This document shows, piece after piece, positions 1-56,830 of a stretch of 64,000 bases of DNA. A model generated the notes under the pieces. The model was not told the origin of the DNA. It saw nothing but the letters and a program-made list of their open reading frames with translations, and did no database searches. The stretch spans positions 1 to 64,000 of the forward strand of contig KV918941.1 of NCBI GenBank assembly GCA_002049455.2, read 5' to 3'. Each line of letters opens with the position of its first letter. The first letter of the stretch is position 1. The stretch comes from Porphyra umbilicalis. Its lineage: Eukaryota > Rhodophyta > Bangiophyceae > Bangiales > Bangiaceae. Both the position numbers and the translations under genes were made by a program.

Positions 1-146
1 CCACATTGAATGCCTAGGGCCCAGACCGAGTCGGCTTCGAATCGGGGCTCAGGATCGCGGCCTGGGCCCTGTTTTCTGCAGGATCCCAGGATCGGTGGCC
101 CGGGCTGGGATTCCGGCCGGAGACTTAAGGGACGCGGCCGATCCCA

Positions 147-200
147 CCTCGTGGTCGGATCGCTGAGGTTGGGATCGCAACCTCGTGGTCGGATCGCTGA
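147..200. repeat. 20-bp direct repeat upstream of IPMDH gene
   Basis: The 20 bases at 147-166 recur exactly at 181-200, and GGATCG words recur around them. The repeat lies 125-180 bp before the preferred start codon of the IPMDH gene, so it could be a promoter element or a chance short duplication. No TATA-like sequence is obvious between 1 and 324. The end of this stretch (about 225-300) is pyrimidine-rich, which is compatible with a 5' leader. Confidence 0.5.
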
Positions 201-324
201 CCGACCTCAGCCGGCGACACGCACTTGCACATGCATCACCCTGCCATCTCCTCCCCTTCCCATTCTTCCCCACCATCTCCCCGACCCCTTCTACAACTTG
301 TTCTGGTCCATACACCACTCATCG

Positions 325-1629
325 ATGGTGGCCTTTGTCTCGGCCGCCGCCGCCACCGTCGGCGCGGCGTCTCCCTTTGTGGCCGGCTCCCGCCCCGCCA
401 CGGCGGCACGGCGCCCCCTGTGGGTGCCCCGCTCCGCGTCGCCTATCGTCCGGCGATCTACCATCCTTTCCCCTTTCGCATCTGCCGGTACCCCCGTCGC
501 CACCACGGCTGACGCGGTGTCCCCCGCGACCGCCAAAACGCACACCATCACGCTCCTCCCTGGCGATGGTATTGGCAATGAGATCATGGACGCGACCGTC
601 AAGGTTCTCGAAGCGGTCGCCTCCCGTTTTGACTTGAACCTCGCCATGACGTCGGCGTTGATGGGCGGGGCGGCCATTGATGCGACGGGCGAGCCGCTGC
701 CGGCGGCGACGCTCGACCAGTGCCGCGCGTCGGACGCGGTGCTCCTCGCGTGTATCGGCGGCTACAAGTGGGACGACCTCCCCCGCGCGACGCGCCCCGA
801 AACGGGTCTCCTCGCGCTGCGCAAGCAGCTCGGCCTGTTTGCGAACCTCCGCCCGGCCAAGTCGTTTGCGCAGCTGGAGGGGGCATCCTCCCTGAAGGAC
901 GAGGTCGTCAATGGCGTGGATTTGATGGTCGTCCGCGAGCTGACCGGCGGTGTCTACTTTGGGACGCCAAAGGGCATTGATACGGACCCGTCCACAGGCG
1001 CGCGCGTCGGGTACTCCAACATGGTGTACCACGACTATGAGGTGCAGCGCATCGCGCGGGTCGCCATGGACATTGCGATGAAGCGGGGCAAGGCGGTTGT
1101 GTCGGTTGACAAAGCCAACGTCCTCGAAGTGTCCCAGTTGTGGCGGGAGGAGGTGATCAAGGTCGCTGCCGACTATCCTGAAGTCGACCTGTCGCACATG
1201 TATGTGGACAATGCGGCGATGCAGCTGGTGCGGTGGCCCAAACAGTTTGACGTCTTGGTCACGGGGAACCTGTTTGGGGACGTCCTCTCGGACTGCGCGT
1301 CGATGCTCGTCGGCTCCCTGGGCATGCTCCCGTCCGCGTCGCTCGGCGACGGGTCCGGGCCGGGCGTCTTTGAGCCTGTCCACGGGTCCGCACCGGACAT
1401 TGCCGGGCAAGACAAGGCCAACCCGGTCGCGTGCGTGCTGTCTGCGGCTATGATGCTGCGCTATGCCCTCGCAGAGACGGACGCGGCCGACGCCGTCGAG
1501 GCTGCCGTCGAGGCTGTGTTGAACGCGGGCTGGCGGACGGGCGACATCATGTCTGACGGCAAGACACTCGTCGGTTGCAAGCGGATGGGCGAGCTGCTCG
1601 TCGAGGCTGTATCCGCGGGCGGCAAGTAG
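325..1629 (+). CDS. leuB: 3-isopropylmalate dehydrogenase, plastid-targeted
   Basis: This enzyme catalyses the NAD-dependent oxidation and decarboxylation of 3-isopropylmalate, the third step of leucine synthesis. The predicted protein is 434 residues from the ATG at 325. The frame is open back to an ATG at 10, but the 105 extra residues are Arg/Pro-rich and look untranslated, whereas [13 protein letters not shown] at 325 begins a typical red-algal/plastid leader rich in Ala, Ser and Arg. The mature enzyme starts near residue 72 with the nucleotide-binding [11 protein letters not shown]. Further family signatures follow in order: [12 protein letters not shown], the catalytic-Lys region [25 protein letters not shown], the metal-binding [10 protein letters not shown], and the adenine-site [13 protein letters not shown]. 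The length without the leader (about 360 residues) matches bacterial LeuB. There is no intron. The plastid location is inferred from the leader only. Confidence 0.95.
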
Positions 1630-2514
1630 GACGACCCGCTCGATGAGGTGTCGCCGGCATGCATTTGTGGGTTTAGAGTCAACCCTGTGCTTCTCCGCAC
1701 TCGTCCCATCCCCGTGCCCCGCCGGCGCCCATGCCTTCTACCGGCGGCGACCGCGCCGCTTGTTGAAACGTGCGCAGCGGCGGGCTTCCTTCCGCCCCGC
1801 TTGGCGCCGACGCGGGTGCGCAGCCGCGATGCCCCTGTTGCTGTCGGGCCGACGGTGCCCTTCCTTTCGCCACTCTCCCACCCCCCGCTGCGGTCCGGTC
1901 GGGCAGTCATCGGTGGCCACCGGCAGCCTTGAGGGGGGGGGGCACCACGGGGGGAGGGAGGTGGTCCACAGCGGGGAGGGGGAGGGGAAGGACCCCCACC
2001 CCGTCCGCGCTGCCGTCGGGGGAGCCCCGACGGGCGCGCCGGGGGCCGTCTCGCGGGACAGGGGAGGGGGCTGGCGACCGCCGACGGCACGCCTCGCACG
2101 CCCCCTCTCTCTTTCTCTTCTCCCCCGCGCTGCCCAGTGTATCTCTGTCTCTCCTCCCCCCCGTCTCCCAATTAATGGTGTTCTCTCCTCCCCGCTGACC
2201 TTCCAGTCTCCGCCGCCAACAGACACGCGGCTGACGACCGGCGCCCGTGTCCATTGCCGGTGGGAACAGGGGGTGAGCCGCCGACGCTGCGCGGGCAAGG
2301 AGCGACTGCTGCCGAGGGTTGCTGCCTGTGGATGCGGGAGCGAGGGGAGGAATGGCACCTGCACTCTCCGCACAGGCCATGCTTTGTGGCTGGGGCGGGA
2401 AGAGGCAGACGGCAGGGCAGCGTTCGTGCTTTGTCAATGGCGCCGCCTCCTTTTTTTCAGACGGAAAGTGCGTGGAGAAACATGTGTAAGACTGTTTCCT
2501 AACCATGAAACCCA

Positions 2515-2590
2515 GCGCACGGCGTGGCCGCGCGTCCACTCCCGGCCGCGCGTTCACTCCCGGGAGTGGACGCGCGGCCACGCCGTGCGC
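2515..2590. repeat. Perfect 31-bp inverted repeat (hairpin)
   Basis: Bases 2515-2545 are the exact reverse complement of 2560-2590, separated by 14 bases. The loop can pair in an alternative register: the core ACTCCCGGGAGT at 2554-2565 is itself palindromic, with arms CCGCGCG/CGCGCGG. It marks the transition into the extreme-GC block and may be a remnant of a terminal-inverted-repeat element or a simple fold-back. Confidence 0.85.
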
Positions 2591-3000
2591 CGGGTGGTTG
2601 GGATCCCGACCGCACCGGCGGCGGGCGACGCGGCGGTTGGCTCCCCACCTGTGTTGTGCTCCGCGTCGACTTGCCGTCGCCACGAGCGACGACGGGCGTG
2701 GCGGGCGGCGCTCGTGCATCCCCGCGGCGGCCCCGGTCGGTGGGAGGTCCACCCCATCGCGGTGGTCCTCCCCCAGCCCGTGCCCCGCGGGCGGGGGCGC
2801 CCCGGCGCTGCTGCTCGAGCCGTTGCCGCTGCTCGGCGCGGCGGGGGTGGTACCGGGGGCGTCGCCACCGTCGCGCTGGGGGCCCCGCGACGGGGGCCCC
2901 GCGCTTCGGGGCTACACCGTCGCATTTGAGGGGGGCCACTGGGCGATCCGCGCGGCCCGCCCGACGCGCCGCGCCGCGTGGCGGTCGTGGCAGGCGGCGC

Positions 3001-3054
3001 GGGCGTGTCGGGCGGCGCGGGCGTGTCGGGCGGCGCGGGCGTGTCGGGCGGCGC
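3001..3054. repeat. 18-bp tandem repeat, three copies
   Basis: The unit GGGCGTGTCGGGCGGCGC is repeated three times without interruption. It sits inside the GC-rich block and keeps every frame open because 18 is a multiple of three, which explains part of the shadow ORFs. Confidence 0.85.
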
Positions 3055-4306
3055 GCACCTCGCGCGCCGCGTGCCGCGCGCCGCGGCGGTGCGCGACGGG
3101 ACGCGGTGGCGGCGGTGGTTGCGGGCGGGGCCGACGCCCATGGCGGCGGCGGCAGCGCCGGCCCCATCGACGGCGCCGGCGCGCGCTGTCCGAGACGCCC
3201 GCCCTGACGCTGGTGTCGGCGGAGGCGTCGCCCGAGCGGCCAGTGTTTGCTCCCGCGTGGTGACGCGGGCGGCCACGGAGGCGGGCCGGCCGGTGCCGCT
3301 GCGGCGGGTGTGGGTCGAGGGGGGGGGGGGGTGCCGACCGCGTCGCCGCCGGTGCCCGCGTCGCCCCGGCCGACAAGGTGGCCGGCGGCGGGGGCGTGCA
3401 AACGGGGCGCTGCGGGCAGACGGCCGTCGGCGCTCCCCGTGCACGCGCGCCGCGCCGGCGCGGCGCTGCGCTCGGCCGAGCCGCCCCCGTCTGCCGTCTG
3501 GCTTGGCGCACCAGGCGCCGCCGGTGCGGTGGCGCTGCGCGGCCCGCCGCCGACGTGCAAGGGCGTGCGCCCGGCCGCGGCCGAGGCGCGCGGCTGCGAG
3601 CGACGGGTCGTCCGTTTCGCCTTGCGCCAAGGCGGGGGAGTGGCTGCCCCGCTCCTTGCGAGCGGGAGGCAGGCGGCGCGCTTGCCTCGGGCCCGCGACG
3701 GCCCCCGCGTCCGTGCTCCTCGACACCCTGCGCGTGCGTGCGCCGCCCCCGCGCGGCGTGTGTGCGCGCCTCCAGCCCCTCGCGGCGGCCACGCCGGCGC
3801 GGCCACGCGCGTCGTGGGCGCCCGCGCGGGGCGGCGGCGCGCGCGCGCGGCGGCGGCAGCGACCGCGGCGGCGGCAGCGGCCGCCACTGCCGCGCGCGGG
3901 TGCGGCGGCGCCCGCCGGCCGCGGGCGGGCGCCGCGCTGTGCGCCGCCGCGGTCGCGGCTGCCGCCGCCGCGTCGCGGCGCGGCGCGGCGCGGCGCGGGC
4001 GGGCGGGCGGGCGGGCAGCCGCGCGACCGCCGCCGACAGTGGCGGCCGGCGGGTGGGGTCCCCTCCCCCCCCCGCCGCGCGCCCGGCGGGCGGCCGCGGC
4101 TGCCCGCGGCGCACGCGTCGGCGCGCGCGCGGCGGCGGTGGCGGTCCGACCCCCGCCGGCGGCGGGGGGGGCGGCCCCCGCGCGTGTGGGGGGGGGTGTG
4201 GGGGAGGCGGCGTAAGCGGGGGGGAGGCCCATCCGCCCCCGCCCGGCGGCCGCGCTGCGCGCCGCCGCCGCCGCCTGCGGCCGCGGGTGCGCGTGTGGGT
4301 GCGGGT

Positions 4307-5012: not shown

Positions 5013-8000
5013 CTACACGCCGCGGTGGCCAGCAGGAAAAGCGTGCGCCAAAGAGCGGAGCAGAGCACGGACAGCAGGGCGGCTGCGCCGGCCACGCCCG
5101 CGGCGTAATCTCACCTCAATGTGGTGGACTCGACCCACAACAAACTCACCATCTTGACGCCAGCGCTCCCACTGCGGGCCAAACTGCTGCAGCGCCCGCG
5201 CGGAAACCAACGCCGCATCCCACCGCTCGGCATCCAGCTGTGCCAGCAACAAAATGAACGTCGCATGAGCCCATCCTTGCGGCGCCGTCTCCCGCGTCCT
5301 CACCTGCAGCGCCAGGCCGTAGCACTCGATGGCCTTGTCCACGTTGGCGCCCTTGTCCCCGGTCACGCGGTTCCTGTACGCGGCGCCGAGGTTCATCTGC
5401 GTCATCGCCCACTGCAGCGGCGCCGCGTCCCGCGTCCACACCTGCAGCGCCAGGCCGTAGCACTCGATGGCCTTGTCCGCGTTGGCGCCCTTGTCCCCGG
5501 TCACGCGGTTCCTGTACGCGTTGCCGAGGTTCGTCTGCGTCATCGCCCAGTCCAGCGGCGCCGCGTCCCGCGTCCTCACCTGCAGCGCCAGGCCGTAGCA
5601 CTCGATGGCCTTGTCCACGTTGGCGCCCTTGTCCCCGGTCACGCGGTCACTGTACGCGGTGCCGAGGTTCATCTGCGTCGTTGCCCAGTCCAGCGGCGCC
5701 GCGTCCCGCGTCCACACCTGCAGCACCAGGCCGTAGCACTCGATGGCCGTGTCCACGTTGGTGCCCTTGTCCCCGGTCACGCGGTTCCTGTACGCGTTGC
5801 CGAGGTTCATCTGCGTCGTTGCCCAGTCCAGCGGCGCCGCGTCCCGCGTCCACACCTGCAGCGCCAGGCCGTAGCACTCGATGGCCGTGTCCACGTTGGT
5901 GCCCTTGTCCCCGGTCACGCGGTTCCTGTACGTGTTGCCGAGGTTCATCTGCATCATCGCCCAGTCCAGCGGCGCCGCGTCCCGCGTCCACACTTGCAGC
6001 GCCAGGCCGTAGCACTCGATGGCCTTGTCCACGTTGGCGCCCTTGTCCCCGGTCACGCGGTCGCTGTACGCGTTGCCGAGAATCATCTGCGTTATCGCCC
6101 ACTGCAGCGGCGCCGCGTGCCGCGTCCACACCTGCAGCACCAGGCCGTAGCACTCGATGGCCTTGTCCGCGTTGGCGCCCTTGTCCCCGGTCACGCGGTC
6201 ACTGTACGCAGCGCCGAGGTTCATATGCGTCATCGCCCAGTCCAGCGGCGCCGCGTCCCGCGTCCACACCTGCAGCGCCAGGCCGTGGCACTCGACGGCC
6301 TTGTCCACGTTGGCGCCCTTGTCCCCGGTCACGCAGTTACTGTACGCGTTGCCGAGGTTCATCTGCGTCATCGCCCACTGCAGCGGCGCCGCGTCCCGCG
6401 TCCTCACCTGCAGCGCCAGGCCGTAGCACTCGATGGCCTTGTCCACGTTGGCGCCCTTGTCCCCGGTCACGCGGTTCCTGTACGCGTTGCCGAGGTTCGT
6501 CTGCGTCATCGCCCAGTCCAGCGGCGCCGCGTCCCGCGTCCACACCTGCAGCGCCAGGCCGTAGCACTCGATGGCCTTGTCCACGTTGGCGCCCTTGTCC
6601 CCGGTCACGCGGTCACTGTACGCGGTGCCGAGGTTCATCTGCGTCGTTGCCCAGTCCAGCGGCGCCGCGTCCCGCGTCCTCACCTGCAGCGCCAGGCCGT
6701 AGCACTCGATGGCCTTGTCCACGTTGGCGCCCTTGTCCCCGGTCACGCGGTTCCTGTACGCGTTGCCGAGGTTCATCTGCGTCGTTGCCCAGTCCAGCGG
6801 CGCCGCGTCCCGCGTCCACACCTGCAGCACCAGGCCGTAGCACTCGATGGCCGTGTCCACGTTGGCGCCCTTGTCCCCGGCCACGCGGTCACTGTACGCG
6901 GTGCCAAGGTTCATCTGCGTCATCGCCCAGTCCAGCGGCGCCGCGTCCCGCGTCCACACCTGCAGCGCCAGGCCGTAGCACTCGATGGCCTTGTCCGCGT
7001 TGGCGCCTTTGTCCCCGGTCACACGGTCACTGTACGCGTTGCCGAGGTTCATCTGCGTCATCGCCCAGTCCAGCGGCGCCGCGTCCCGCGTCCTCACCTG
7101 CAGCGCCAGGCCGTAGCACTCGATGGCCTTGTCCACGTTGGCGCCTTTGTCCCCGGTCACGCGGTCGCTGTACGCGGTGCCGAGGTTCATCTGCGTCATC
7201 GCCCACTGCAGCGGCGCCGCGTCCCGCGTCCTCACCTGCAGCGCCAGGCCGTAGCACTCGATGGCCTTGTCCACGTTGGCGCCCTTGTCCCCGGTCACGC
7301 GGTTCCTGTACGCGGCGCCGAGGTTCATCTGCGTCATCGCCCAGTCCAGCGGCGCCGCGTCCCGCGTCCACACCTGCAGCGCCAGGCCGTAGCACTCGAT
7401 GGCCTTGTCCACGTTGGCGCCCTTGTCCCCGGTCACGCGGTTCCTGTACGCGTTGCCGAGGTTCATCTGCGTCATCGCCCAGTCCAGCGGCGCCGCGTCC
7501 CGCGTCCACACCTGCAGCGCCAGGCCGTAGCACTCGATGGCCGTGTCCACGTTGGCGCCCTTGTCCCCGGTCACGTGGTCACTGTACGCGGCGCCGAGGT
7601 TCATCTGCGTCGTTGCCCAGTCCAGCGGCGCCGCGTCCCGCGTCCATACCTGCAGCGCCAGGCCGTAGCACTCGATGGCCTTGTCCAGGTTGGCGCCCTT
7701 GTCCCCGGTCACGCGGTTGCTGTAAGCGTTGCCGAGCGTCGTTTGCACGCTTGCCCACTTCGGTGCGTTGTTCCTCCGGGGAGCGGCGTCGAGGGCTCTG
7801 TGCACCCAGCTGATGGCGCGCTCGATGTTGGTGGCGCGGGGCCCAGCTATTCGGCCGAGGTAGGCATTCGCGAGACCTTGATAGACGCTGTACTGCAGCT
7901 GAGGGCTCTGCCTGGTCTCGCAGGTCTTGTCATCCGCCACCAGTAGCAATCCTGCGAGTACCGTCTCAACATCGCCCTGGTATGCCAAAAGTGAGCGGGT

Positions 8001-11000
8001 CCGCACACGGAGCCGCTCCCACTCCGAATGCAGCAACCAAGGCAGCCCCCACACGTCTCCGCTCGCCGCGACGTGGCGGGCCATGTTGTCGTAACAGTAT
8101 CCATCGTCTGTGCACATCCAAAACGGGTACGACCGCCTTGCGCCGTCCTCCACCATAGCGCCATGCCCACAGAGGTAGTCGCGCACCAGAAAATGATGCG
8201 TGGCGACGACGCGGCCTGGCCCCAGCAGCGCAGCAGCATACTCGCTCACGACGGGATGCACCGTCACGGACGAAACTTCTCCGGTGTCTGCATTCACCTC
8301 CCGGCGCAGCAGCCCGGCACGCACCAGTGTGTCAATCTCCTGCACCACCGGGTCACGCACCACCACGCCTTCAGCATGACGCGCACTTGTAGCTGAAGGC
8401 TCGCAAGCAGTGGTAGCACCGCTCAGCTGGGGTCGCCACAGCCTCTCTAGCGCGCACACAGCCACCTTGGCATTTGTGGGCAAGACGCTGCATGCCATGA
8501 ACGCCACGCGGCTCACGTTGTTGGGGAGAAGGTCCAGACTCATGTCCAGCGTCGCTCGGACAGACCGGGCCAGGCCGTCCAGCAAAGGCTCACAGCCAAG
8601 GTCCATCCACTTCTGCTCCAACGCGTCCACGACCGGGCGCCAAGCACCACCCATCTGGGCAATGTTCGCCCCGACAATGCTGAGCGACAGCGCGTGCCGT
8701 TCCGTCTTTTTCAGCACCCGACGCACCCAGTCAAACTCGTCTGCTGCTCCAAACGGGGACTCCACCTCCATCGCCGGCCGCCCCACCGCCTTGGCTAGCA
8801 CCGCCCGCGCGTCAGCTTCAGGCAGCGAGTCAATGGGCACGAGCGTGAACTCCGGGACAGACTCCACGACAGCTTGCGAGCGCGTCGTAAACAGGACGGG
8901 GGCAGCGCTGGGCGCGACCCGCAGCAGCGTGTGCAGCAGGTTGCGCTTGCTGTCCAGCACGTCATCAATGACGACCAGCTGCTCACCCGCACGCTCCGCC
9001 GAGACCGACCCCACGTGCGAGGCCGCCAAAGAAACAAAGTCGGCCTGTTCCTTCAGCCTGAAGAGCGCATTGGCAACGTCCTTCGTGCAAAACCGGTACA
9101 CCAGCGCCATCACGTCCTCGATGATCGTCACCGCCGTCGATGACGCGTTGAGCTGCACCCAGACCGTTCCTCCTGGATACAGCTCCTTGATGGCGCCACA
9201 AGCCACCAAACCCGCACAGGCAAACGACTTTCCGCTCCCGCCAATCGCGCAGATGCCCAAACGGGGCGCCAGGGAGACCCCGTTCCGCGCATGCTGCTGG
9301 AGTTTGCAAAGGATGGTGTGCTCTGCTCGCCCCGGTGTTGATACTCCAGGCACATAGGTACGTTCATCCAGTCTGGGTGGGATCCTCCGCACCTTGTACA
9401 ACGAGAGGTCGGGTCCCAGGGCCTGAGCCACACTGCCAGGTGGCCTCGAGACCTCGTGCTCGATTCGCATCACTGCCATGCCCAGCGCCCCATGCTGCCG
9501 TTGCTCACCGACCTTGTGGACGAGCTCGTCCAGCTTGCTCTTCAACCCGCGAATGGTCTGATCCGACGTGACGCGCCCCACAAGCCCCACCAGAACGGCC
9601 TCCTCCACCTGCTCCAGGAGCGTCTCCAGCTGACTTAACAGTCGGCACAGCCGCTCCTGATGGGCGACACCAAAGTCAGTCTTAAGAAGCTGCAGCGTCC
9701 CGAGCAGGTGCTTGAGCAGTTCATGAGCCAATTCCGAGCACCGCTTGGCCACTGACGTGCAAAGGTCAGCGTGATCCCGCACGCGGATGGCCACGGCACC
9801 AATGTGCACCACCAAGCAGGCGACGCGCAGAGCGATTTCCACAGCGGGCACACCGCTCACCTGACCCACAGCGTCCGCAACCTTCTTGACCACACTGGCA
9901 ACGGGCGCGCCCACGCATGGCGTCGGCTGCAGCCACAGCGACGCCTTCAGGACGGCTCGACGCCCGGACGTTCCCAGCAGCACAAACACAGCGTCGGACA
10001 CCTTTCCGCTCCGCGTGGGAGCCAGTGGATGCGTCTCGTCGAGCAGCCGCGTCACTGCCGCCACACTGGTCTCGTCGGCCACACCAGCCGGCAGCAGCGA
10101 CGACCAGGAATGCGCCAGGAACGACCCCGCCGTGGCCCACGACGCGCACACGCCCGCGTCGTCCGCTTTCAGCAGCAGCGTGATGCGGCCGAGGTCACAG
10201 CCGCCGTGTGCAGTGCTGCGCTCCATACCACGCACCCACAGCAGATGGTTGGTCAGATCAACGCCGGCCCGTTTCGCGTCGGCTGCATTGGCGACGCGCA
10301 GGTCACAGTCTTCCCGCGGCAGGTGGACGCACCGCAGCTTCCGCTTGACAAGATCGACCACCGACGCGGGCGGCGGCGCTTGCGCCTTGGCCGGCGCCAG
10401 GTACAGGTTGCGGCCGAGCAAGGCGTGTAGGACGGTGCCACGTTTCAATTTCTTGACGGTGGACTCACACGACAGCACCCGAAAGGTGGCCATGGGGTAC
10501 TCGGTCGCCTCGGCGTCGCAGCCAGCCCCGCCTATCGGGCCAGCCGCCGCGCTGCCCGACGCCCCGACGCCCATTGCGGCCGACGGCCCCGCCGTGTCGC
10601 CCTCATCGGGCACAGCGGCGGGCGGGCCGCCGCGCGCGGGCCCGCTCGCGGGGGCGCCTCCGTCGGCCGTGTCAGCCGCAGCGGGCGGCACGGCCTCCAC
10701 CGCGCCGACCACTGACGCCTGCGCAGCCGCCCCCGACGTAGCGCCCTCAGCAACCGGGCAACCCGCTGCCATGGCAGTTCCCGCTGGTGGGACAGGCCGA
10801 GCCGGTGTCGCCACCGCACCAGACGCGGCGCCGGCAGACGCGGTGCCCAGAGACGCGTCACCAGCAGCGGCGCGGCCAGCCGCCGCCGTGAGAACCGCCG
10901 CCGGTGAGGCGGGGGCCACGGGTATGGTCGCTGAGACGGGGCTTCCACCGCCGCCGCTACTGTCGCCGCCCGCCAGCTCAACTAGGGAAACCACAGCCTT

Positions 11001-11063
11001 CGATCCTGCGCAACGCAGGATCGAAGGCAAACGCGCAAGATCGAAGGCATATGCACCAATCAT
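5013..11063 (-). CDS. NB-ARC-like STAND NTPase with 18-unit TPR array
   Basis: This is a 2016-residue single-exon protein. Residues 1-190 are Ala/Gly/Pro low complexity; MATFRVLSCES near residue 190 is an alternative start. A helical region follows at about 190-560. The NTPase domain has P-loop IGGSGKSFA near 608, Walker B LVVIDDVLD near 698, sensor-like VLFTTRS, and HALSLSIVGANI in the GLPLA position. After a winged-helix-like region, residues 1103-1930 are 18 units of 46 residues of the form WAxTQMNLGNAYxxRVTGDK. The NTPase-plus-TPR layout is that of signal-sensing STAND switches: plant and algal NB-ARC-TPR candidates and bacterial regulators with the same type of TPR repeat. The repeats would bind a ligand and the NTPase would oligomerise. 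The family assignment rests on motifs; the immune role is inference from family. The 3' end is a TGA next to the GC-rich interval. Confidence 0.88.
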   Translation of the reverse strand: MIGAYAFDLARLPSILRCAGSKAVVSLVELAGGDSSGGGGSPVSATIPVAPASPAAVLTAAAGRAAAGDASLGTASAGAASGAVATPARPVPPAGTAMAAGCPVAEGATSGAAAQASVVGAVEAVPPAAADTADGGAPASGPARGGPPAAVPDEGDTAGPSAAMGVGASGSAAAGPIGGAGCDAEATEYPMATFRVLSCESTVKKLKRGTVLHALLGRNLYLAPAKAQAPPPASVVDLVKRKLRCVHLPREDCDLRVANAADAKRAGVDLTNHLLWVRGMERSTAHGGCDLGRITLLLKADDAGVCASWATAGSFLAHSWSSLLPAGVADETSVAAVTRLLDETHPLAPTRSGKVSDAVFVLLGTSGRRAVLKASLWLQPTPCVGAPVASVVKKVADAVGQVSGVPAVEIALRVACLVVHIGAVAIRVRDHADLCTSVAKRCSELAHELLKHLLGTLQLLKTDFGVAHQERLCRLLSQLETLLEQVEEAVLVGLVGRVTSDQTIRGLKSKLDELVHKVGEQRQHGALGMAVMRIEHEVSRPPGSVAQALGPDLSLYKVRRIPPRLDERTYVPGVSTPGRAEHTILCKLQQHARNGVSLAPRLGICAIGGSGKSFACAGLVACGAIKELYPGGTVWVQLNASSTAVTIIEDVMALVYRFCTKDVANALFRLKEQADFVSLAASHVGSVSAERAGEQLVVIDDVLDSKRNLLHTLLRVAPSAAPVLFTTRSQAVVESVPEFTLVPIDSLPEADARAVLAKAVGRPAMEVESPFGAADEFDWVRRVLKKTERHALSLSIVGANIAQMGGAWRPVVDALEQKWMDLGCEPLLDGLARSVRATLDMSLDLLPNNVSRVAFMACSVLPTNAKVAVCALERLWRPQLSGATTACEPSATSARHAEGVVVRDPVVQEIDTLVRAGLLRREVNADTGEVSSVTVHPVVSEYAAALLGPGRVVATHHFLVRDYLCGHGAMVEDGARRSYPFWMCTDDGYCYDNMARHVAASGDVWGLPWLLHSEWERLRVRTRSLLAYQGDVETVLAGLLLVADDKTCETRQSPQLQYSVYQGLANAYLGRIAGPRATNIERAISWVHRALDAAPRRNNAPKWASVQTTLGNAYSNRVTGDKGANLDKAIECYGLALQVWTRDAAPLDWATTQMNLGAAYSDHVTGDKGANVDTAIECYGLALQVWTRDAAPLDWAMTQMNLGNAYRNRVTGDKGANVDKAIECYGLALQVWTRDAAPLDWAMTQMNLGAAYRNRVTGDKGANVDKAIECYGLALQVRTRDAAPLQWAMTQMNLGTAYSDRVTGDKGANVDKAIECYGLALQVRTRDAAPLDWAMTQMNLGNAYSDRVTGDKGANADKAIECYGLALQVWTRDAAPLDWAMTQMNLGTAYSDRVAGDKGANVDTAIECYGLVLQVWTRDAAPLDWATTQMNLGNAYRNRVTGDKGANVDKAIECYGLALQVRTRDAAPLDWATTQMNLGTAYSDRVTGDKGANVDKAIECYGLALQVWTRDAAPLDWAMTQTNLGNAYRNRVTGDKGANVDKAIECYGLALQVRTRDAAPLQWAMTQMNLGNAYSNCVTGDKGANVDKAVECHGLALQVWTRDAAPLDWAMTHMNLGAAYSDRVTGDKGANADKAIECYGLVLQVWTRHAAPLQWAITQMILGNAYSDRVTGDKGANVDKAIECYGLALQVWTRDAAPLDWAMMQMNLGNTYRNRVTGDKGTNVDTAIECYGLALQVWTRDAAPLDWATTQMNLGNAYRNRVTGDKGTNVDTAIECYGLVLQVWTRDAAPLDWATTQMNLGTAYSDRVTGDKGANVDKAIECYGLALQVRTRDAAPLDWAMTQTNLGNAYRNRVTGDKGANADKAIECYGLALQVWTRDAAPLQWAMTQMNLGAAYRNRVTGDKGANVDKAIECYGLALQVRTRETAPQGWAHATFILLLAQLDAERWDAALVSARALQQFGPQWERWRQDGEFVVGRVHHIEVRLRRGRGRRSRPAVRALLRSLAHAFPAGHRGV
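5274..7757 (-). repeat. 138-bp tandem array, 18 copies, coding TPR units
   Basis: There are eighteen head-to-tail 138-bp units, each coding one 46-residue TPR. Units differ at only a handful of positions: N/A/T after NLG, RN/SD/SN before RVTGDK, V/A in GANVD, K/T in DKAIE or DTAIE, W/R in QVWTRD, and D/Q at the unit end. The same alternatives recur in different combinations along the array, a mosaic pattern expected from unequal crossing-over or gene conversion. Flanking the array, a degenerate half-unit precedes it and a capping helix beginning WAHATF follows it. Confidence 0.95.
10996..11028. repeat. 15-bp perfect hairpin just inside the NTPase start codon
   Basis: Bases 10996-11010 are the exact reverse complement of 11014-11028 with a three-base loop. 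The hairpin lies about 12-22 codons into the minus-strand ORF that starts at 11063. If transcription covers this start, the mRNA would fold strongly near its 5' end, which could favour the internal Met at about residue 190. Confidence 0.7.
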
Positions 11064-12142: not shown

Positions 12143-15100
12143 ATGTCCGATAGGGGCTTTGACGAGCAGGGGTCCTCTGACGATGGCCAGCCACTGCTTG
12201 TGGCGTCCACGCTACCCTCCACGGATAGTCCCCTGCAGTCAGGGAGTGTGCCCTCTGTTGAGAATTGGGTTGGGGGTAGCTCAGCCGGGTCCGCTGTTGC
12301 TATTCCCGGTGGTACGGGGCCTGTTGACCTGTTCCCTGAAATGGGTTTTCAAGAGCAACAATGTGGTGGCCGTGACGACTGCGGGCTGGGCGACGATAAC
12401 GATCAGGGAGGCGGCGACGGCGGCGATGGCGGCGACGGCGGCGACGGCGGCGACGGCGGCGACGGCGGCGACGGCGGCGACGGCGGCGACGGCGGCGACG
12501 GCGGCGACGGCGGCGACGGCGGCGACGGCGGCGACGGCGGCGACGGCGGCGACGGCGGCGACGGCGGCGACGGCGGCGACAGCGGCGATGGCGGCGACGG
12601 CGGCGACGGCGGCGACGGCGGCGACGGCGGCGACGGCGGCGACGGTGGCGACGGCGGCGACAGCGGCATTCGTAACGCCTCCTCTCTGCCGCTCGCTGGA
12701 GCAGCATCCCCACCCACTGCTTCTAAAAAACAACGCTTCCAGCAAGCTCGCCCTGGGCCGCGTCACGGCATGGGGGGGCGGAAGAAGGGCACCGGCAGGC
12801 GCACGCGGGAGAACTTTGGTCGGGGGTTGCGTCGTGTCGTGGGGGCCTATTTGTCGGAGACCCCCGTCGAGTCCCTCGCGTCGGACTGCGGTGTCTCCCA
12901 CGATGCCGCCGCGGAGGCGATTAACCTGCTGCAGTCGTGATCGGAGGAGGGGGGCACGGAGCAGGTGTGGATGATTCCTGCCGTCTTTGGTGTCGTCGCC
13001 AGATGGGGCGAGTGGCGGCGAGACTCCCAAGGGGAATGCGCAAGCGCATGCGTGTGGCTGGCTGTGGATGGGCGATACAGGTGCACCTGTGTTGGGGCCA
13101 ACGTGCACCAGGACAACCATATTCACGAGCGCCCAACTACGTGCCAACACGCTGGAGTATTAGATGCGGCACTGCAAGAAGTCGCCGCGGTGCTGGGCGT
13201 AACGCCGCACGACGTCAAGCTACAGCTCGGAAGAAGGGCGCAACACACGGGCGATGGGAACGCGCAGGGCACGGCGGATGACCCCATGACGTTCAATGTC
13301 GTTGGTGCCCTGTACGTTGCCGTTTGTCCAACACCGCTTGGCATCGTGCCGGTGCCGCTGTACCTGACGGCCACCCGCTCTTCGTGTGGCTTCTGTCCAG
13401 GCGCTCGCACCAGAGTGTGCTCGCACCTAGGCGTTGCGCAAGAGTGCGGGGCGCCGCAAACATCCCACCGATCCTCTGCGCAGAGTATGGTCCGTAGCCT
13501 TGAAGTGTCTTCCGTGTCGCAGTTACCCATCCCCCTGCTCGACTGTATCGCGGCCGTGCGGTCCAACGCGGACGTGTGCTCCAAGACGATCAACGGCGAC
13601 CTTTTTGTCTTGCCACCCCCTTCATCCTGCTCGTTGTGCAGTGGCAGAGGCAGAAAGCACGACCTCTCGGGATCCTCCAAGAGAGCGGGTGTCATCGCGT
13701 GCACGCGAGGGTTTTGCAATATGGAGGTGCACCTGGCCAAGTGCTCATCCTGCCTGCAATGGATATCACGCGATGGTCGGGAGGAACACATCGTGTTGCT
13801 GACGCTGACGTCCGCGGCGACCGTCTCTTGGATCCGGTCCATGGCGCTGCAGACCTCGGAGGGGACGGCATTGACAACATGCACGACGAGGTGGGCGCGC
13901 GCCGTCCGTCGGGAGATGGTTGCCGGTGTCCAGGAACGGGGAGGCCGGACTCGCAGCGGCCGCGTGTTGCGGAACCTGGTGTTGACGGGCCTGAAGATGA
14001 TGGTGACGCAACTGCTCCCCGCTTTGTTCACTTGCTTGCACTGCATGGACTGCGACGGGCGGTACAAGTTTGTGTCTGCGGACTCCATATGGGTGGGGTT
14101 TGGCAGCGGCTCTGACCATGTGTGGTTTGAGCACATCACGCAGCACGTACCAGAGAACGAGCGGGCGGTCAAGGCCGCATATCTCGTTCGCGGGGAGAGC
14201 ATCCGCCGCGTCATTCGCGACGTGATTCAGCCGCGCAAGGAGGTGAAGGTGTTGTCGAGGACGCTGCGCGCGTCAGAGCAAGCCTTCGGCGTCCTCTTCC
14301 CTGGATCACTTCCAAAGGACGCGAAAAAGGAGGCCACCCCGGGAGAAAAGGCAATTGGCGCCCTCCTTGGCACGGTCTTTGACATTGGCGCTGCCGCAGC
14401 AAAGCTGCTATCGTCGGTTCGGACGGGGCTTGCCACTTACAAGACTCGCAGCCGCGCCGAGGCGCAACGTCGGGCAGCAGCCGCCCACCATCTGACGCAG
14501 TACATTGCCACCCAGCAGGTCAGCAAAGCGAGCACGGCGGGCACAGAGGGTACGGCTACCGGCGGGGCACCGGCGACGACGCGGCCAACACCGCCACCGC
14601 CGACAACCACCGGCGGGCCGCCGACGGCGACGCGGCCCACACCACTGCCGCCGCCGATGGCTACAAGCGGGGCGCCGACGGCGGCGCGGCCAACACCGCC
14701 GCCGCCGCTGACGACCACCGGCGGGGCCCCGGTGGAGACGCAGCCAACACGCCCGCCGCCGCCGGCAGCTACGGCCGGGGCGCCGACGGCTGCGCGGCCA
14801 ACACTGCCGCCGCCGCCGACGGCTACGGGTGGGGCGCCGACAGCGGTGCGACCAACACCGCCGCCGCTGCCGACGTCTACGGGCGGGGCCCTAACGGCGG
14901 CGCGACCAATAACGCCGCCGCCGCCGACGGCTACTCGAAGGGGGCCAACGGCGACGCGTCCAGTGCCGCCGCCGCCAACGACGGCCACCGGCGGGCCGCC
15001 GACGGCGACGCGGTCACCACCATCGCCGCCGCCGACGGCTGACGGCTGGGCGTCGACTGCGCCAAGACCGCCGCGGCCGCCGATGGCCACCGGGCAGGCA

Positions 15101-16720
15101 CCGCCGGCGACGCGGCCAACACCACCGCCACCGCCGGGGGCTACAGGTGCAGCTCAAGACGGACCAATGCAGGCAGCCGCCGCTGGCCTGTCACGAGTTC
15201 TCCGAGCGGACCCTGGGAACGGAAAAACAAGGGGAGGCGGGCGAAACTCCTACGGGGGTACCGCTACAAAGGGCAAGCGACGCAAGGTGGACTGTGGCCG
15301 GCAGCCTTTTAAGCCCGGAAAGGGGGACGCGGACGCCGACTCACCCTTCCTCGCTCGAGCTGTTGCGGATCTAGACAAGGACGCGCGGCGGGAGCTGCTC
15401 TCTTTTATCACCGCTATCACCATTGACAGCGTCGTGCTGCCATTTCGAGCGAGCCAGGTCGGCGCCGTGCGCAGCCTGGCGGCAATGCTGGTGGGCCACA
15501 ACCATCGGCAGGTGTTGGCGGAGCTGCTGGCTGCTTCCACTACGACCGCAGAGGTGGAAAATGACGACGAACGCAAGCCGATTGTGGACATGCTACGAGA
15601 GCTGCGGTTCTTCCAGCTGGGAATGCGCGCTGCCGTCGCTCTTTTCTTTTCTCTGCCCACCCTGGCCGCCGCTTTGTCCAACACGCTCGTGTGCGTCGCC
15701 GATGCCATCGACAACTTCATCATCGAGTGGCGCAATGGGCCCGAGCAGACGGTCGAGTACGAGAAGAAGTGGAGGAGCGGGGAGAGGTCACAGATGGAGA
15801 TGTCGCGGGACTTCCAACAGCAGTACCCTTCGGCCGCGCACGGGCACGAGCGGACGGGGACGTGCGCGCCGTCGCTGCCCCAGTGTCGGCCGGAGCCGTT
15901 TCTCTGGCAGGACGTTTTGTCTACGGGCATGTGCTCCAAGCACTACGCTAAGGCACACAAGTTTTCTCCCGGCGCAATGACGATTTGCTGCGGGTGCAAG
16001 CACCCACTCATCTTGGCCTTCACCGTTCTCGACAGGAAGGAGGCACCGCAGGTGCTCCTCAACATGCTGCTGACGCGTTTTGCCCGCATCCCGCGGTTAC
16101 TTATCTACGACTTCGCGTGCGGCGCGTTCCGGGTCGCGCTCGGTAAGGTCGGGTGGTTGCTAATGGACTGCACAGTGGTGTCCGACCGGTTCCACATCTT
16201 CAACCACTTGTGCTCGGACGCGTTCGACCCGCGGTCGTACGCGGAGATGGACGAGGCGGACTCGGGTGCCCCGGAGCAGCGAAATGCGCCCATCCGCCGG
16301 ATCCAGACGACGCTGCAGGGCATGGGAGTCGAGCCCTACACCAACCTGCTCGCCTACCAGACGGCCATCCTCAACCATGAGGCCCAAACCAAGTGGAACC
16401 CGGGTGTCGACCGTTTGTCCGAGGACGCAGACCTGGCGGGCGAGTACTTTTGCCGGTTTGACTGCATGTGCTGCGACGAGCCCCGCAGCGCCTCCGCGCC
16501 AGGACTTCCCACAATGAGTAGCTCCGATGACGGTGGAGATGTGTGCAGTGATTGCGAGCCGATTGCAAGTGTTGACCGCGCTCCTCGCGCGGTGAGGGAT
16601 GCGGACGGCGGTGGGATGTCGATAGCCTCGTCTGAGCGTGCCTCTGAGTGTGCTTCCTCGAGTAGTAACGATTCGATTGAGGGCGGGTCGGGGAGTGGCG
16701 GCAGCACTTTGGGCGAGTAA
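12143..16720 (+). CDS. KDZ-superfamily transposase with cysteine clusters (two exons)
   Basis: This is probably an RNase H-fold transposase that moves a DNA element. I read exon 1 as 12143-12936 and exon 2 as 13081-16720 (1477 residues), joined across a GT-AG intron that removes an in-frame TGA at 12938; without splicing the gene is broken. Exon 1 has an acidic GGD run and a basic GRKKGTGRRTR patch. Exon 2 has CxC-type cysteine clusters (13630-13760 and about 14030-14060, FTCLHCMDC), then a Pro-rich linker of about 21-residue repeats (14560-15145). The catalytic part follows: LLIYDFACGAF (about 16100), SDRFHIFNHLCS (about 16179) and GAPEQRNAPIRR (about 16272). Together these give the spaced D, D and E of Kyakuja-Dileera-Zisupton transposases. 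The tail is acidic and Ser-rich. The splice model is inference from frame continuity. Confidence 0.85.
12410..12664 (+). repeat. 9-bp microsatellite (Gly-Gly-Asp)n inside KDZ exon 1
   Basis: GGCGGCGAC is repeated about 28 times with a few single-base variants (GAT, AGC, GGT). The nine-base unit keeps the frame, giving a Gly-Gly-Asp tract of about 85 residues. The other frames read as pure Arg or Ser-Pro-Pro runs and are artefacts. Confidence 0.95.
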
Positions 16721-16781: not shown

Positions 16782-17702
16782 CTACGATCCCTTCGGCTGA
16801 TTCCCCAAGACGGTGACAAATGGAAAGTGGAAAAACGCTGACACGATCATGCACACTACCAGTGCCGTGCACCCCACCACGCACGCATTCGCCACGTTTG
16901 CCGACAACGCGCTCGCGAGCGTGCCGTCTCCAGTGGCATCAATCCCCACCGCCGCACAGCCGCGGCACTCGATCAACGGCACGGCCGTGAACACCGCGTG
17001 CTCTACCTTGTTGTCCACGGCAAAGTATATCGCTGCCGCCACCGCCGTGCACCCCACCACGCAATTGCTGGCCGAGGCCGCCGACGACGCACCCGCCAGT
17101 GTGGCGGCCCCATCCGCTCCAATCCCCGCCGCGGCGCAGCCGCGGCACGCAACCAGCGGCACGGCCGTGACCACCGCGTGCTCCACCTTGTTGTCCACGG
17201 CAAAGTAAATCGCTTCAGACACCGCCGTGCACCCCACCACGCACGTGCTGGCCGAGTCCGCCGACAACGCGCCCGCGAGCGTGGCGGGCCTAGCCGCTCT
17301 CATCCCCGCCGCCGCGCAGCCGCGGCACGCAACCAGCGGCACGGCCGTGACCACCGCGTGCTCCACCTTGTTGTCCACGGCAAAGTAAATCGCTTCAGAC
17401 ACCGCCGTGCACCCCACCACGCACGTGCTGGCCGAGTCCGCCGACAACGCGCCCGCGAGCGTGGCGGGCCTAGCCGCTCTCATGCCCGCCGCCGCGCAGC
17501 CGTGGCACGCAACCAACGGCACGGCCGTGACCACCGCGTGCTCCACCTTGTTGTCCACGGTAAAGTACATCGCTCCCGACACCGCCGTGCACCCCACCAC
17601 GCACGTGTTGGGCGAGTCCACCGACAACGCGCCCGCGAGCGTGACGTCGCCCGCTGCACCTTTCCCTGCCGTCCCAAAGCCGGGGCACGCGGACAATGGC
17701 AT
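16782..17702 (-). CDS. Hypothetical protein made of 60-residue Cys-rich repeats
   Basis: This 306-residue ORF starts at the ATG at 17702, is convergent with the KDZ gene, and ends 62 bp from its stop. It consists of about 4.5 copies of a 60-residue unit. Each unit has a C-x2-C (ACRGCAAAG), a C-x3-C (CVVGCTAV) and a hydrophobic stretch (EAIYFAVDNKVEHAVVTAVPL). The protein ends with a hydrophobic segment, MIVSAFFHFPFV. The alternation of Ala/Val stretches and paired cysteines suggests a small metal-binding or disulphide-rich repeat protein, possibly membrane-associated. I do not recognise the family. The opposite strand is also open over much of the array, but its Arg/His-rich product is less protein-like. 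The repeat itself could be a non-coding satellite. Confidence 0.4.
   Translation of the reverse strand: MPLSACPGFGTAGKGAAGDVTLAGALSVDSPNTCVVGCTAVSGAMYFTVDNKVEHAVVTAVPLVACHGCAAAGMRAARPATLAGALSADSASTCVVGCTAVSEAIYFAVDNKVEHAVVTAVPLVACRGCAAAGMRAARPATLAGALSADSASTCVVGCTAVSEAIYFAVDNKVEHAVVTAVPLVACRGCAAAGIGADGAATLAGASSAASASNCVVGCTAVAAAIYFAVDNKVEHAVFTAVPLIECRGCAAVGIDATGDGTLASALSANVANACVVGCTALVVCMIVSAFFHFPFVTVLGNQPKGS
16846..17702. repeat. 180-bp tandem repeat, about 4.7 copies
   Basis: The phrase ACCGCCGTGCACCCCACCAC recurs at 180-bp steps (about 17040, 17220, 17400, 17580), and the two middle units are almost identical. The unit length is a multiple of three, so frames stay open through the array. 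Confidence 0.9.
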
Positions 17703-28501: not shown

Positions 28502-31192
28502 CAATAAACAGCATTGTTAGTTAGGCTTTCCATCATCGCCAAGGTAGAATGAGACGCAAGGATGACACACGAGTGTGCTAGCAGCCATTGCACGGGGACA
28601 GCAGACACACAACCAGAAAATAGACGTACCATAGGACTGCCTCAGGGCCGAGACCCCCTGAATGGGCGTCGGCAACGCCCGAAGCTTGCCGAACTGTCAC
28701 AACTACAAGCACAGAAGGGTTCCAAGAGAACAGCACTGCAAAAAGGGCCAGAGAGGCAGAGAGCACGTTGCATCAGTGGGCTGCATGTCACCGTGCCACC
28801 TGCAGGAGTCCAGGTCAAATAACACGAAAACCGACACACACACCTACCTAGCGACGTGACGCTGCGGGCAGTGCGCTGCGGCACCCGGGGGCATGACCCT
28901 CGGGAAGAAGGGGGGAGAAAGCGACCGAGCGTCCACTACAGGAATGGTTGCTGTGGAAGAAGCGGTCAAGGGGAGCCCAGTCCTCCATCACCGCATGAAA
29001 GAGTAGGCCGTGTCCAAGCCCCCACCGCAACCAGCCGCAAGCGCCAGGCTCCCCGACCGTGCAGCTGTCGCCAATGGATGCCTCCATCACCCGAAGAAAG
29101 GCAAGAAGAAACAAGACGACCAACAGCCAGTGCAAGCGATGGTCCACGGCGGGCAGGATCACGGCCATGCCTCGGCAAGCAGGAGCGACGGAGGTCGGAG
29201 CCCGGCGGTTGCTGCCCGTGGGCGGCACCGGATCCACACTGGGCCAGGTGGTGGAGGGCCCCTGCAAGCACTGGAATCGTGGGCGGCGGGTGCCACGCAT
29301 ACAGAAACGTGCGGCACCCACGTCATTCCGCGATCTTTGCGTTTCCAGGTGGTGCGCAACACAAGGACAGCAAGGTGCCGCGTGTGGCCAATGGCCACTG
29401 GCCATCAAAAGTGTCCGCATGATTGGCACACGAAGGCCGATCACCGCTGATATCTCGCACCAGGCGAGACTCCCGATAAGAGAACCAGGCCTACAACTCT
29501 TGTGCAAGTCCGTTAAGTGCTCATAGTAGCCCCCTTCATTGACGGCATGCGCCTTTTTCGATTCAAATTGAAACGACACTATTCAAATGACTCACTGCGA
29601 GTGGGGGCGTCAGGCATCCACCGAAGAGCTCGAAGCTCGCCTTGGCCGTACCTAGTGGCTGTCGGTCGCCGACGCCGGAAGGTGTGAGACTGTCGTCCCA
29701 TGCGCCAGCTACGTCAGTGGCAGCGGTTGGCAGTCCTGCCTGCCAATTTGCGAACGCGGGTCCGCAAAGCAACAACTGCACCCACCCGGTTATGGGGGTC
29801 TGTCTTTGCCACAGGCGTACCCTTTTCCTCGGCCGGGCGTGCTTCTGCTCGTCGCCTGTACTTGCTGGACGTATCTACGCCACCCCCTATCTGAAAACCA
29901 TTCATCATGCACGCATAAGCCAGAGTCGTTCTGAAATGTGATTGTCACCCCTAAAGTCAGAGCTCATTCCCATCTTGCTTCTGTAGTCGCGCACGCATCC
30001 ACGGGGCATGCGCCACACATCCAAGCGCCAGCGCGACAGCTCCACGTCCGCAGCCCCAGACCGTGCGCTTGCAGAGTGCTCCTGAGCTCGCCAATTGCGT
30101 ATCCAGCCACCGCACGAAGCTATCGAGCCATGCTGGCAGTCCCATACGTCCGATGTTGTTCATGATATGATCAAGTCACTGTCGACCGCGGCGCACAAAC
30201 AAAAGGCAAGTGGGCTGCAGCGCACCCCAACTCGACCCTTTCAGAGTGCCTTCTGCTTTGACGGAGTATTATCGCTGGGGTTCATCAGCAAGCCTTGGAA
30301 CGCAAATAGTGCCGGCAGCGCACATAAAACTGATGGCAGCTGGGAAGGGGGCCCATTTGCGGTGGTGTGATCTGTACTGGAGTGGTAGGATGGTCCCGAA
30401 GCTTGCGTGCTACCAACCAGTCACACCAGCTATGCGAAACACCTCCGAGTTGGTGGCGCCTCGCTGGCCACGCTTTGCGGCTAGGCTTTGTTGACAGCTG
30501 TTCATGACTGCTGATGCGTGCCACCGGCGGCGGATCCTGTTGAACCAGGAAGCCTACTCGTACTAGTCAGTGCTTAGAGGATCACTGCTGGACACATCCA
30601 ACACGTGGGAACGAATTGTTGCCAGTGCTGCGGTCCCCACACCATACGCTGCACTGGTCGAGCTGAAGGGAGCCAAGTACGAAAGACAACATGCTATTGT
30701 GTTTGTGTCCCTAGAAACTGCGTTCCACTGGGGAGGGCGCCCACCTGTGGTGGTGCGACACAAACTGGAGCGGTAGGATGGCCCCAAACTTTGCGTGCTA
30801 CCAACCAGTCACACCAGCTCTGAGAAACACCTCCGCGTTGGTGGCGCCGCGCTGGCCACGCTTTGCGGCTAGGCCTTTTCGACAGCTGTTCATGGCTACA
30901 GGTGCGTGCCACCGGCGGCGGGTCCCGTTGAATAAGGAAGTCTACGGGTACAAGTCAGTGCTCATAGGATCACTGGTGGATACTTCCAACAAGTGGGAAC
31001 TAGTTGTTGCCAGTGCTGTCCTCCCCACATCATACCCTGCACAGGTCGAGCTGAAGAGAGCCAGATACATAAGACAACATGCTTTTAAGTTGAGTATCCC
31101 TAGAACCTCCCTTCCGTTCTATGGACACGCTCCCGCCCAACGTGACCCCCCCACAATGTCCCCCACCCGACCGCCCACGTTCCCTTCTACAC
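28502..31192. other. Intergenic, no supportable gene
   Basis: Between the KDZ gene and MUS81 the ORFs are short and overlap antisense partners (for example 28848-29579 minus and 28856-29422 plus). No domain is visible. Base composition falls to moderate GC, with AT-richer patches at 29540-29600. The last part is occupied by a 388-bp repeat. Confidence 0.5.
30320..31115. repeat. 388-bp tandem duplication, about two copies
   Basis: GTAGGATGG and its surroundings occur at 30385 and again at 30773. The sequences following each (GCGTGCTACCAACCAGTCAC, the gene-free stretch to CAACATGCT) run in parallel for a full unit, and part of a third copy trails off near 31115. Units diverge by roughly one base in ten by eye. 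It ends about 80 bp from the MUS81 stop codon. Confidence 0.8.
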
Positions 31193-55594: not shown

Positions 55595-55674
55595 CTACGA
55601 AGAAAAGGCCAATGCAGTCGCACAATCGGTGTTGCACACGAAAGGACATCAAAAAGCAAGGGAGTTTCAACGTG

Positions 55675-56830
55675 AGCCTACAGTGCTCCGCGTGCCTTGA
55701 CGCCGATCAAGAGTATGCCTCTGCCCCTCGTGTACCAAACCAGACCATATTACCAACACGCGAAAAACCAAGTCACAAGGTCGAGGTGCAGTCATACCGT
55801 TGGAACACAAACCGACGCGGCGGGGCTTGAGCCAAAGTGAGGCACACCAACAACACCAAAAGCGAGCAGCCCCTCCCCGCAGCCAACAGTGTCGGCCGCA
55901 GATTGTACTACTGCGCCGCGCACACCAGCACAGGAGCATTACATGAAAGGGCAGCAAAGAGTATGGGAGTTTCAAAGTTAGACTACAGTGCCTCGAGTGC
56001 CTTCATGCCCATCAAGAGTATGCCTCTGCCCCTCTTGTACCAAATCAGACAATATTACCAACACGCGAAAAACCAAGTCACAAGGACGAGGAGCAGTCAT
56101 ACCGTTGGAATACAGAACGACGCGGTGGGGCTTGTAGCCAGAGTGAGGCACACCAACAACACCAACAGCGAGCAGCCCCGCCCCGCGGCCAACAGTGTCC
56201 GCCGCAGAGTGTACCACTGCGCCGCGCACACCAGCACAGGCACAGTACATGAAAGGGCAGCAAAGAGTATGGGAGTTTCAAAGTTAGACTACAGTGCTCC
56301 GCGTGCCTCGATGCCCATCAAGAGTATGCCTCTGCCCCTCGTGTACCAAACCAGACAATATTACCAACACGCGAAAAACCAAGTCACAAGGTCGAGGTAC
56401 AGTCATACCGTTGGAATACAGAACGACGCGGTGGGGCTTGTAGCCAGAGTGAGGCACACCAACATCACCAACAGCGAGCAGCCCCGCCCCGCGGCCAACA
56501 GTGTCGGCCGCAGTGTGTACCACTGCGCCGCTCACACCAGCACAGGCACAGTACATGAAAGGGCAGCACAGAGCATGGGAGTTTTAAAGATAGACTACAG
56601 TGCTTCGCGTGCCTCGATGCCCATCAAGAGTATGCCTCTGCCCCTCGTGTACCAAACCAGACAATCCCACCAACACGCGAAAAACGAAGTCACAAGATCG
56701 AGGTTCATCCGTACCGTTGGTAAAGAGAACCAAGCAGCCCGGTTTGTAGCCAGAGCATGGCAAGAAAGCAGCCATCAGCTCTGCCCCGCAGCGAGTACTG
56801 ACGGCAGCCGACCGTAGCACTGCGCCTAGC
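55675..56830. repeat. 306-bp satellite, about 3.8 copies
   Basis: Units start at 55675, 55981, 56287 and 56593, marked by (GA)CTACAG followed by CCAAACCAGACAATATTACC and GCGAAAAACCAAGTCACAAG. The three full copies are more than 90% alike by eye; the last degrades near 56830. The unit is a multiple of three, so ORFs extend across units on the plus strand (55837-56817), and each unit holds a minus ORF of about 90 codons. I regard it as non-coding satellite unless transcripts show otherwise. Confidence 0.9.

Follow-up and report, generated by a model that had tools for sequence, protein, structure and literature searches.

An NB-ARC gene of the red alga Porphyra umbilicalis with 18 near-identical TPR units, and repeat shuffling in related genes

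The window analysed here is a stretch of 64,000 nucleotides of Porphyra umbilicalis DNA (contig KV918941.1, positions 1 to 64,000), and its gene BU14_0283s0002 consists of one open reading frame of 2016 aa on the - strand (5013..11063), the start codon of which is uncertain. From the N-terminus, the frame comprises a predicted PH-like fold (ORF aa 190-319, 10107..10496), a predicted, mostly helical stretch leading from this fold to the NB-ARC domain (ORF aa 358-539, 9447..9992; model secondary structure of mixed confidence), the NB-ARC nucleotide-binding domain (PF00931; ORF aa 602-820, 8604..9260), a degenerate first TPR unit (ORF aa 1058-1103, 7755..7892), an array of 18 TPR units of 46 aa, or 138 bp, each (ORF aa 1104-1931, 5271..7754) and a C-terminal tail behind the array (ORF aa 1932-2016, 5016..5270), all on the - strand. 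PF00931 matched the frame with an E-value of 8.8e-7 and 28.9 bits (cut-off 23.5), which confirms the NB-ARC-like protein that an earlier note on this DNA had recognised and places the domain in the same open frame as the array. Presumed motifs within it are Walker A (GGSGKS, 9225-9242), Walker B (VVIDDV, 8958-8975) and TTR (8880-8888). The 18 TPR units are C-terminal superstructure-forming repeats of the STAND or NLR-like class and, judged by its sequence, the window protein is an NB-ARC STAND (NLR-like) protein with a near-identical TPR array.

A Foldseek search with the predicted N-terminal region returned nothing at E < 0.1 and ranked non-PH folds at the top; only a second look with VIA-align pointed to the PH reading, which is used here as a prediction. 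For the helical part (ORF aa 358-539) Foldseek listed two rows, both designed proteins and uninformative. A HeLo/MLKL/RPW8-like bundle was considered for this region as well, found no supporting structural-match row and is not claimed.

The array was detected by TRF with a period of 138, 17.8 copies and 94% matches at 5279-7736, and it resolves into 18 contiguous in-frame units of 46 aa, no two of which are identical in DNA (18/18 distinct). The 18-unit array of 138-bp units seen by the earlier reader is thus real; its given span of 5274-7757 sits 3 bases off the TPR register (5271-7754). Mean identity between units is 86.2% in amino acids and 93.3% in DNA. The canonical TPR is a 34-residue helix-turn-helix with the pattern L7 G8 Y11 A20 F24 A27. 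A profile built from nine three-unit segments matched consensus TPR structures with an E-value of 4.7e-26, and its alignment to the consensus TPR chains kept the LG..Y core in register, each unit being 12 residues longer, in agreement with the TPR pattern; in Pfam, TPR_12 and TPR_1 scored above the cut-off in the window frame and TPR_2 below it. A confident single-sequence AF2 model of eight units, an all-beta solenoid, was set aside as an artefact of the type that the available text of PMC11795689 describes for repeat proteins, and the residue mapping therefore rests on TPR numbering and not on the model. Position 45 of the unit resembles canonical 33 only when counted back from the next unit, and it was kept out of the main tests because the profile alignment places an insertion there.

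All the variable sites named in the earlier note exist: N/A/T at unit position 9, RN/SD/SN at 12-13, V/A at 23, K/T at 25, W/R at 37 and D/Q at 45, to which positions 2 and 5 can be added. They also recur in many combinations, as had been stated, with 12 different residue combinations at positions 2, 5, 9, 12 and 13 among the 18 units and 69 of 120 pairs of informative sites incompatible with a tree. A two-segment mosaic test of the window units was unclear (50 mismatches, against a shuffle mean of 55 and minimum of 49).

The P. umbilicalis genome holds 41 NB-ARC matches, and a three-unit peptide matched at least 173 places. The sequence examined consisted of 25 array stretches and the eight best NB-ARC loci and contained one N among 305,887 bases. 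It yielded 31 array segments with at least four units, of which nine entered the position test, eight the PHI test (L031 omitted) and eight the bootstrap (L013, the sister of L012, omitted); end units were trimmed in several arrays, and the three tests also excluded the diverged arrays as well as L014, L032, L033 and L011, the frame of which is interrupted by stops. When each unit was compared with all others (252 units, with L011, L013, L022 and L023 left out), the nearest unit lay inside the same array for 137. In the window array this was true of all 18 units, the pattern of concerted evolution; the proportion was likewise high in L017 (34/35), L010 (14/15), L030 (15/15), L009 (11/11) and L012 (14/15), and it was 0/11 in each of L016, L020, L021 and L024. 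These last four represent one gene in diverged copies, and their 11 units correspond one-to-one in 6/6 pairs. L017 (C101:196500-206499), with 35 TPR units in an open frame of 2915 aa, has almost double the unit number of the window array and carries an exact 424-bp repeat 16 units apart. PHI was significant in 5/8 arrays, the exceptions being L030 (p = 0.065), L009 (p = 0.21) and the window array itself (p = 0.09 with 16 sites). The proposal that units exchange segments is accordingly supported in the family, while the window array taken alone falls short of significance.

Two further observations concern these loci. Six of the eight best NB-ARC loci (L001, L002, L003, L004, L006 and L008) run into WD40-like repeats, named by eye, and where several units were readable they resembled each other (0.86-0.95 over 28 residues in L001-L003), so that a second homogenised repeat class may exist. 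L022 (C211) and L023 (C390) align over 5.5 kb, as far as C390 reaches, at 99.5% identity and with 25 gap openings; from their sequence, they probably represent a duplicate contig or haplotig.

Repeat shuffling itself, which the earlier note had put forward as a possibility, was observed in a related gene. A DNA search with the gene on C69 found two copies at 99% and otherwise pieces of 64-81%. The three copies (C69, C429 and C439; alleles or paralogues) are 99% identical in the 3.4 kb leading up to the array, and their arrays have 15, 15 and 17 units within one assembly. Between C69 and C429, 3330/3363 bases are identical before the array, 269/276 in units 1-2, 1336/1518 (88%) in units 3-13, 261/276 in units 14-15 and 932/947 behind the array; C429 starts within the C69 homology, which ends about 1.3 kb short of the end of C69. 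Among units 3-12 of L012, nine find their best match in L013 under another number and unit 7 matches L013 units 7 and 3 equally well, whereas units 1, 2, 13, 14 and 15 match the L013 unit of the same number. The near-identical arrays draw on a shared variant pool: they have no fixed difference in any of three comparisons, and 128/169, 146/195 and 156/196 minor-allele occurrences are also present in the partner array. Composed from two segments of L012, L013 shows 88 mismatches, against a minimum of 89 and a mean of 98 in 60 site-order shuffles; with three segments the 77 mismatches fall inside the shuffle range (minimum 73). The array on C439 contains a fresh six-unit duplication, units 3-8 recurring as units 9-14 with 131-138 of 138 bases identical, and an in-frame stop in units 6 and 12 (L011) was duplicated with this block, so that a probable pseudogene still underwent array duplication. 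Shuffling is therefore real and confined to some genes of the family, since the copies on C69, C429 and C439 are re-sorted and the four diverged copies keep their order.

Hypervariable concave TPR positions associated with ligand specificity are 2, 5, 9, 12, 13, 33 and 34, according to the portion of PMC1261162 available. This list was drawn up after the window and seven other arrays had been viewed and was then confirmed in the literature, so that the choice of positions, though literature-derived, was not blind. In nine arrays, the positions with the highest mean non-synonymous difference are 9, 5, 2, 45, 13, 37 and 12. By entropy, the top seven include position 2 in 9/9 arrays, positions 9 and 13 in eight, 45 and 37 in six and 12 and 5 in five; in L013 position 2 is the only member of the set {2, 5, 9, 12, 13} among them. 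This set exceeded random position sets in 9/9 arrays (permutation p 0.00005-0.00145). The expectation that the variable residues lie on the exposed face is thus supported by their agreement, in TPR numbering, with the published concave ligand-contact positions.

At the five positions pN/pS was above 1 in 9/9 arrays (L009 without any synonymous change there), and outside them it was below 1 in 7/9. Pooled over eight arrays, the ratio was 2.0 (1.58-2.54) at the five positions and 0.52 (0.46-0.58) elsewhere, these pairwise counts treating recombining units as independent. Pooled pS was equal in the two classes (0.188 and 0.190), which argues against a mutational hotspot at the five positions. Counted as distinct variants in nine arrays, two of them sister copies, non-synonymous to synonymous changes were 136:22 at the five positions versus 341:217 elsewhere (Fisher p 1e-9). 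In the dN/dS-type comparison across units that had been proposed, the pooled family thus lies above 1 at the five positions, but for the window array alone the 95% interval at the five positions (0.72-7.01) includes 1. In the order-keeping copies (L016, L020, L021 and L024) pN/pS at the five positions was 0.39-1.43 over six pairs and higher than elsewhere in 5/6, the exception being L016/L021.

The public gene model differs from the contig. The annotated protein, 1551 aa long, begins at ORF aa 98 (window 10772) and contains 10 units, versus 18 in the contig; apart from the later start, it equals the window frame minus blocks of one unit (7236..7373), five units (6408..7097) and two units (5718..5993), all on the - strand. 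Each block can be placed between sites in the same codon, the one-unit block as an AG|GT-bounded intron, with AG|GT giving way once to AA|GT (the 5' side of the two-unit block is CAA|GT). This codon carries CAG|GT in 17/18 window units and CAA|GT in one, so that joining any two of them, by splicing or by mitotic recombination, would drop whole units in frame. The 12-mers of three other annotated family proteins (P0005, P0024 and P0032) all occur in their open frames, although such a test may overlook a skip that joins identical stretches, and exon-like splicing was rejected as the main explanation because these proteins lack such gaps. As P0005 retains all 11 units, the three-block gap in the window model may be an annotation artefact, unit-skipping splicing being the less likely cause. 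It is doubtful, though worth stating, that the array diversifies within an individual too, by splicing or mitotic recombination, besides germline shuffling; if so, one gene would supply many array variants, as the splicing of repeat exons has been proposed to do in brown algae but here without such exons, and the sensor module concerned would be one also found in cyanobacteria.

Relatives of the array were found well beyond this genome. P0002, a 75% identical homologue on a 14.8-kb JGI contig, has two units only, and its contig may be a collapsed assembly. Eight arrays in proteins not labelled P. umbilicalis (at least 6 units, identity at least 0.6) are most variable at positions 2, 9, 5 and 45. 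A two-unit peptide searched against prokaryote genomes gave 76 loci that are cyanobacterial by title among the best 80 of 361; the same query had no match in phage records. Among the prokaryote matches listed, 61 arrays have at least 6 units, and 52 of these reach an identity of at least 0.6, with variable positions 12 (48 arrays), 13 (44), 2 (43), 9 (37), 45 (31), 37 (29) and 5 (9). Six bacterial long frames picked from the 61 arrays, five cyanobacterial and one from a proteobacterial MAG, all contain a CHAT domain, and NB-ARC is absent from these six at E 0.001. The cyanobacterial TPR-CHAT proteins thus share the 46-residue unit, with up to 66% identity to the two-unit query, and are also homogenised (0.91 amino-acid identity in the best array, variation mostly at 12, 13, 2, 9, 45 and 37), but those examined have CHAT and no NB-ARC match. 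It follows that the unit type and most of the variation pattern are not peculiar to this red-algal family and that the partner domains differ.

The closest parallel among known systems is found in fungi. Fungal NLRs with high internal conservation combine a NOD domain with near-identical repeats (>85% identity over at least 100 aa), examples being the Podospora HNWD genes het-e, het-d and het-r and the NB-ARC-TPR gene Pa_2_10340, and they undergo repeat re-sorting and positive selection at few positions, which in the TPR members lie on the concave side, as set out in the available parts of PMC4986451 and PMC12222747. The window repeats, at 86.2% identity, fall in the same range, and the family likewise has re-sorted copies, in a related gene, and a pooled pN/pS of 2.0 at concave positions. 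The differences are that the host is a red alga, that its 46-residue unit type is common to cyanobacteria, and that the N-terminus is predicted to be PH-like in place of HET, sesB-like or prion-forming domains. In brown algae, NB-ARC with shuffled TPR repeats has been proposed as an immune repertoire, the repeats being shuffled as exons (LRR exons in ROCO genes, TPR exons as cited), as stated in the accessible text of PMC11378527, citing Zambounis 2012 and Teng 2023. The comparison with brown algae made in the earlier note holds as far as the window array does lie in one open frame, and the exon-per-repeat arrangement is absent; even in the annotated model, with its three whole-unit skips, most units stay joined, unlike separate exons. 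Fungal NLRs are a closer parallel to the window gene than brown-algal exon shuffling.

Among red algae, NB-ARC with TPR is reported for Pyropia yezoensis and NBS with TPR for Porphyra umbilicalis (PMC6928737, in part), and of the NB-ARC proteins of Chondrus crispus 58/61 are NB-WD40 (PMC7145615, in part). The portions of these two papers available make no mention of repeat homogenisation, and a literature search, with most subscription papers outside its scope, found no red-algal account of shuffled, contact-diversified arrays among the entries listed.

The reading we favour, and consider probable, is that the gene encodes an NLR-like receptor, with unequal exchange turning over the array and selection diversifying its concave face. 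An NB-ARC switch, preceded by the predicted PH-like fold and helical region, would carry an open-ended TPR solenoid of 18 near-identical 46-residue units. Unequal crossing-over and gene conversion would keep some arrays of the family alike, and the same exchange would re-sort, add and remove units in the array interior. Selection would favour amino-acid replacements at positions 2, 5, 9, 12 and 13 on the concave, ligand-facing side, and the likely outcome, by analogy with fungal NLRs, would be a stable switch bearing a recognition surface that changes quickly, which may bind ligands and serve in immunity or in self/non-self recognition.

Neutral concerted evolution, in which unequal crossing-over homogenises the units and the variable sites are simply the least constrained surface with no role in recognition, would account for much the same positions varying across architectures and kingdoms, including the bacterial CHAT proteins, and it agrees with the window-only pN/pS interval that includes 1 and with the values near 1 in the order-keeping copies. 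We nevertheless regard it as unlikely, as relaxed constraint brings pN/pS to 1 at most and the pooled value is 2.0 with equal pS, and the excess of non-synonymous changes among distinct variants speaks against it too. A fixed-partner TPR scaffold, or a switch in death or development, for which shuffling would be a by-product and no diversifying receptor would exist, draws on the part that NB-ARC proteins also play in non-immune programmed cell death. Such a protein would be selected against change at its contact positions; the pooled family shows the opposite and, as a weak further point, one of four NB-ARC + TPR transcripts of Pyropia yezoensis rose 2.31-fold in severe oomycete infection (PMC6928737, in the part available), which makes this account rather improbable.

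The chance is slight that the array or its re-sorted copies are assembly chimeras or collapsed repeats. Arrays of 138-bp units that average 93% identity are difficult for assembly, the start of C429 lies within its homology to C69 and the annotated protein has fewer units than the contig; against this, the sequence examined holds a single N, the four diverged copies keep 11/11 units in order in all pairs, the end units of the re-sorted copies remain matched, and mis-assembly would not concentrate change at five codons.

Repeat shuffling joined to selection on contact residues is known from some fungal NLRs. Evidence of a comparable mode of evolution in a red alga, with a repeat unit that recurs in cyanobacterial CHAT proteins, suggests that sensors built of homogenised repeats with diversified contact sites have arisen, or spread, more than once among living things. 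How fast and by what mechanism seaweed receptors diversify could be measured in the three near-identical copies with re-sorted arrays.

Some other features of the window were recorded. An open frame at 10-1629 (+) looks like a plastid 3-isopropylmalate dehydrogenase, and G+C content at 2001-4000, near the 3' side of the gene, is 79.4%, versus 54-76% in the other 2-kb bins. A 1251-aa open frame at 12965-16720 (+) had no Pfam match at E 0.01 and in our view resembles KDZ-type transposases. Further long tandem repeats lie at 16864-17643 (180 bp x 4.3), 30376-31105 (388 bp x 1.9) and 55636-56755 (306 bp x 3.7).
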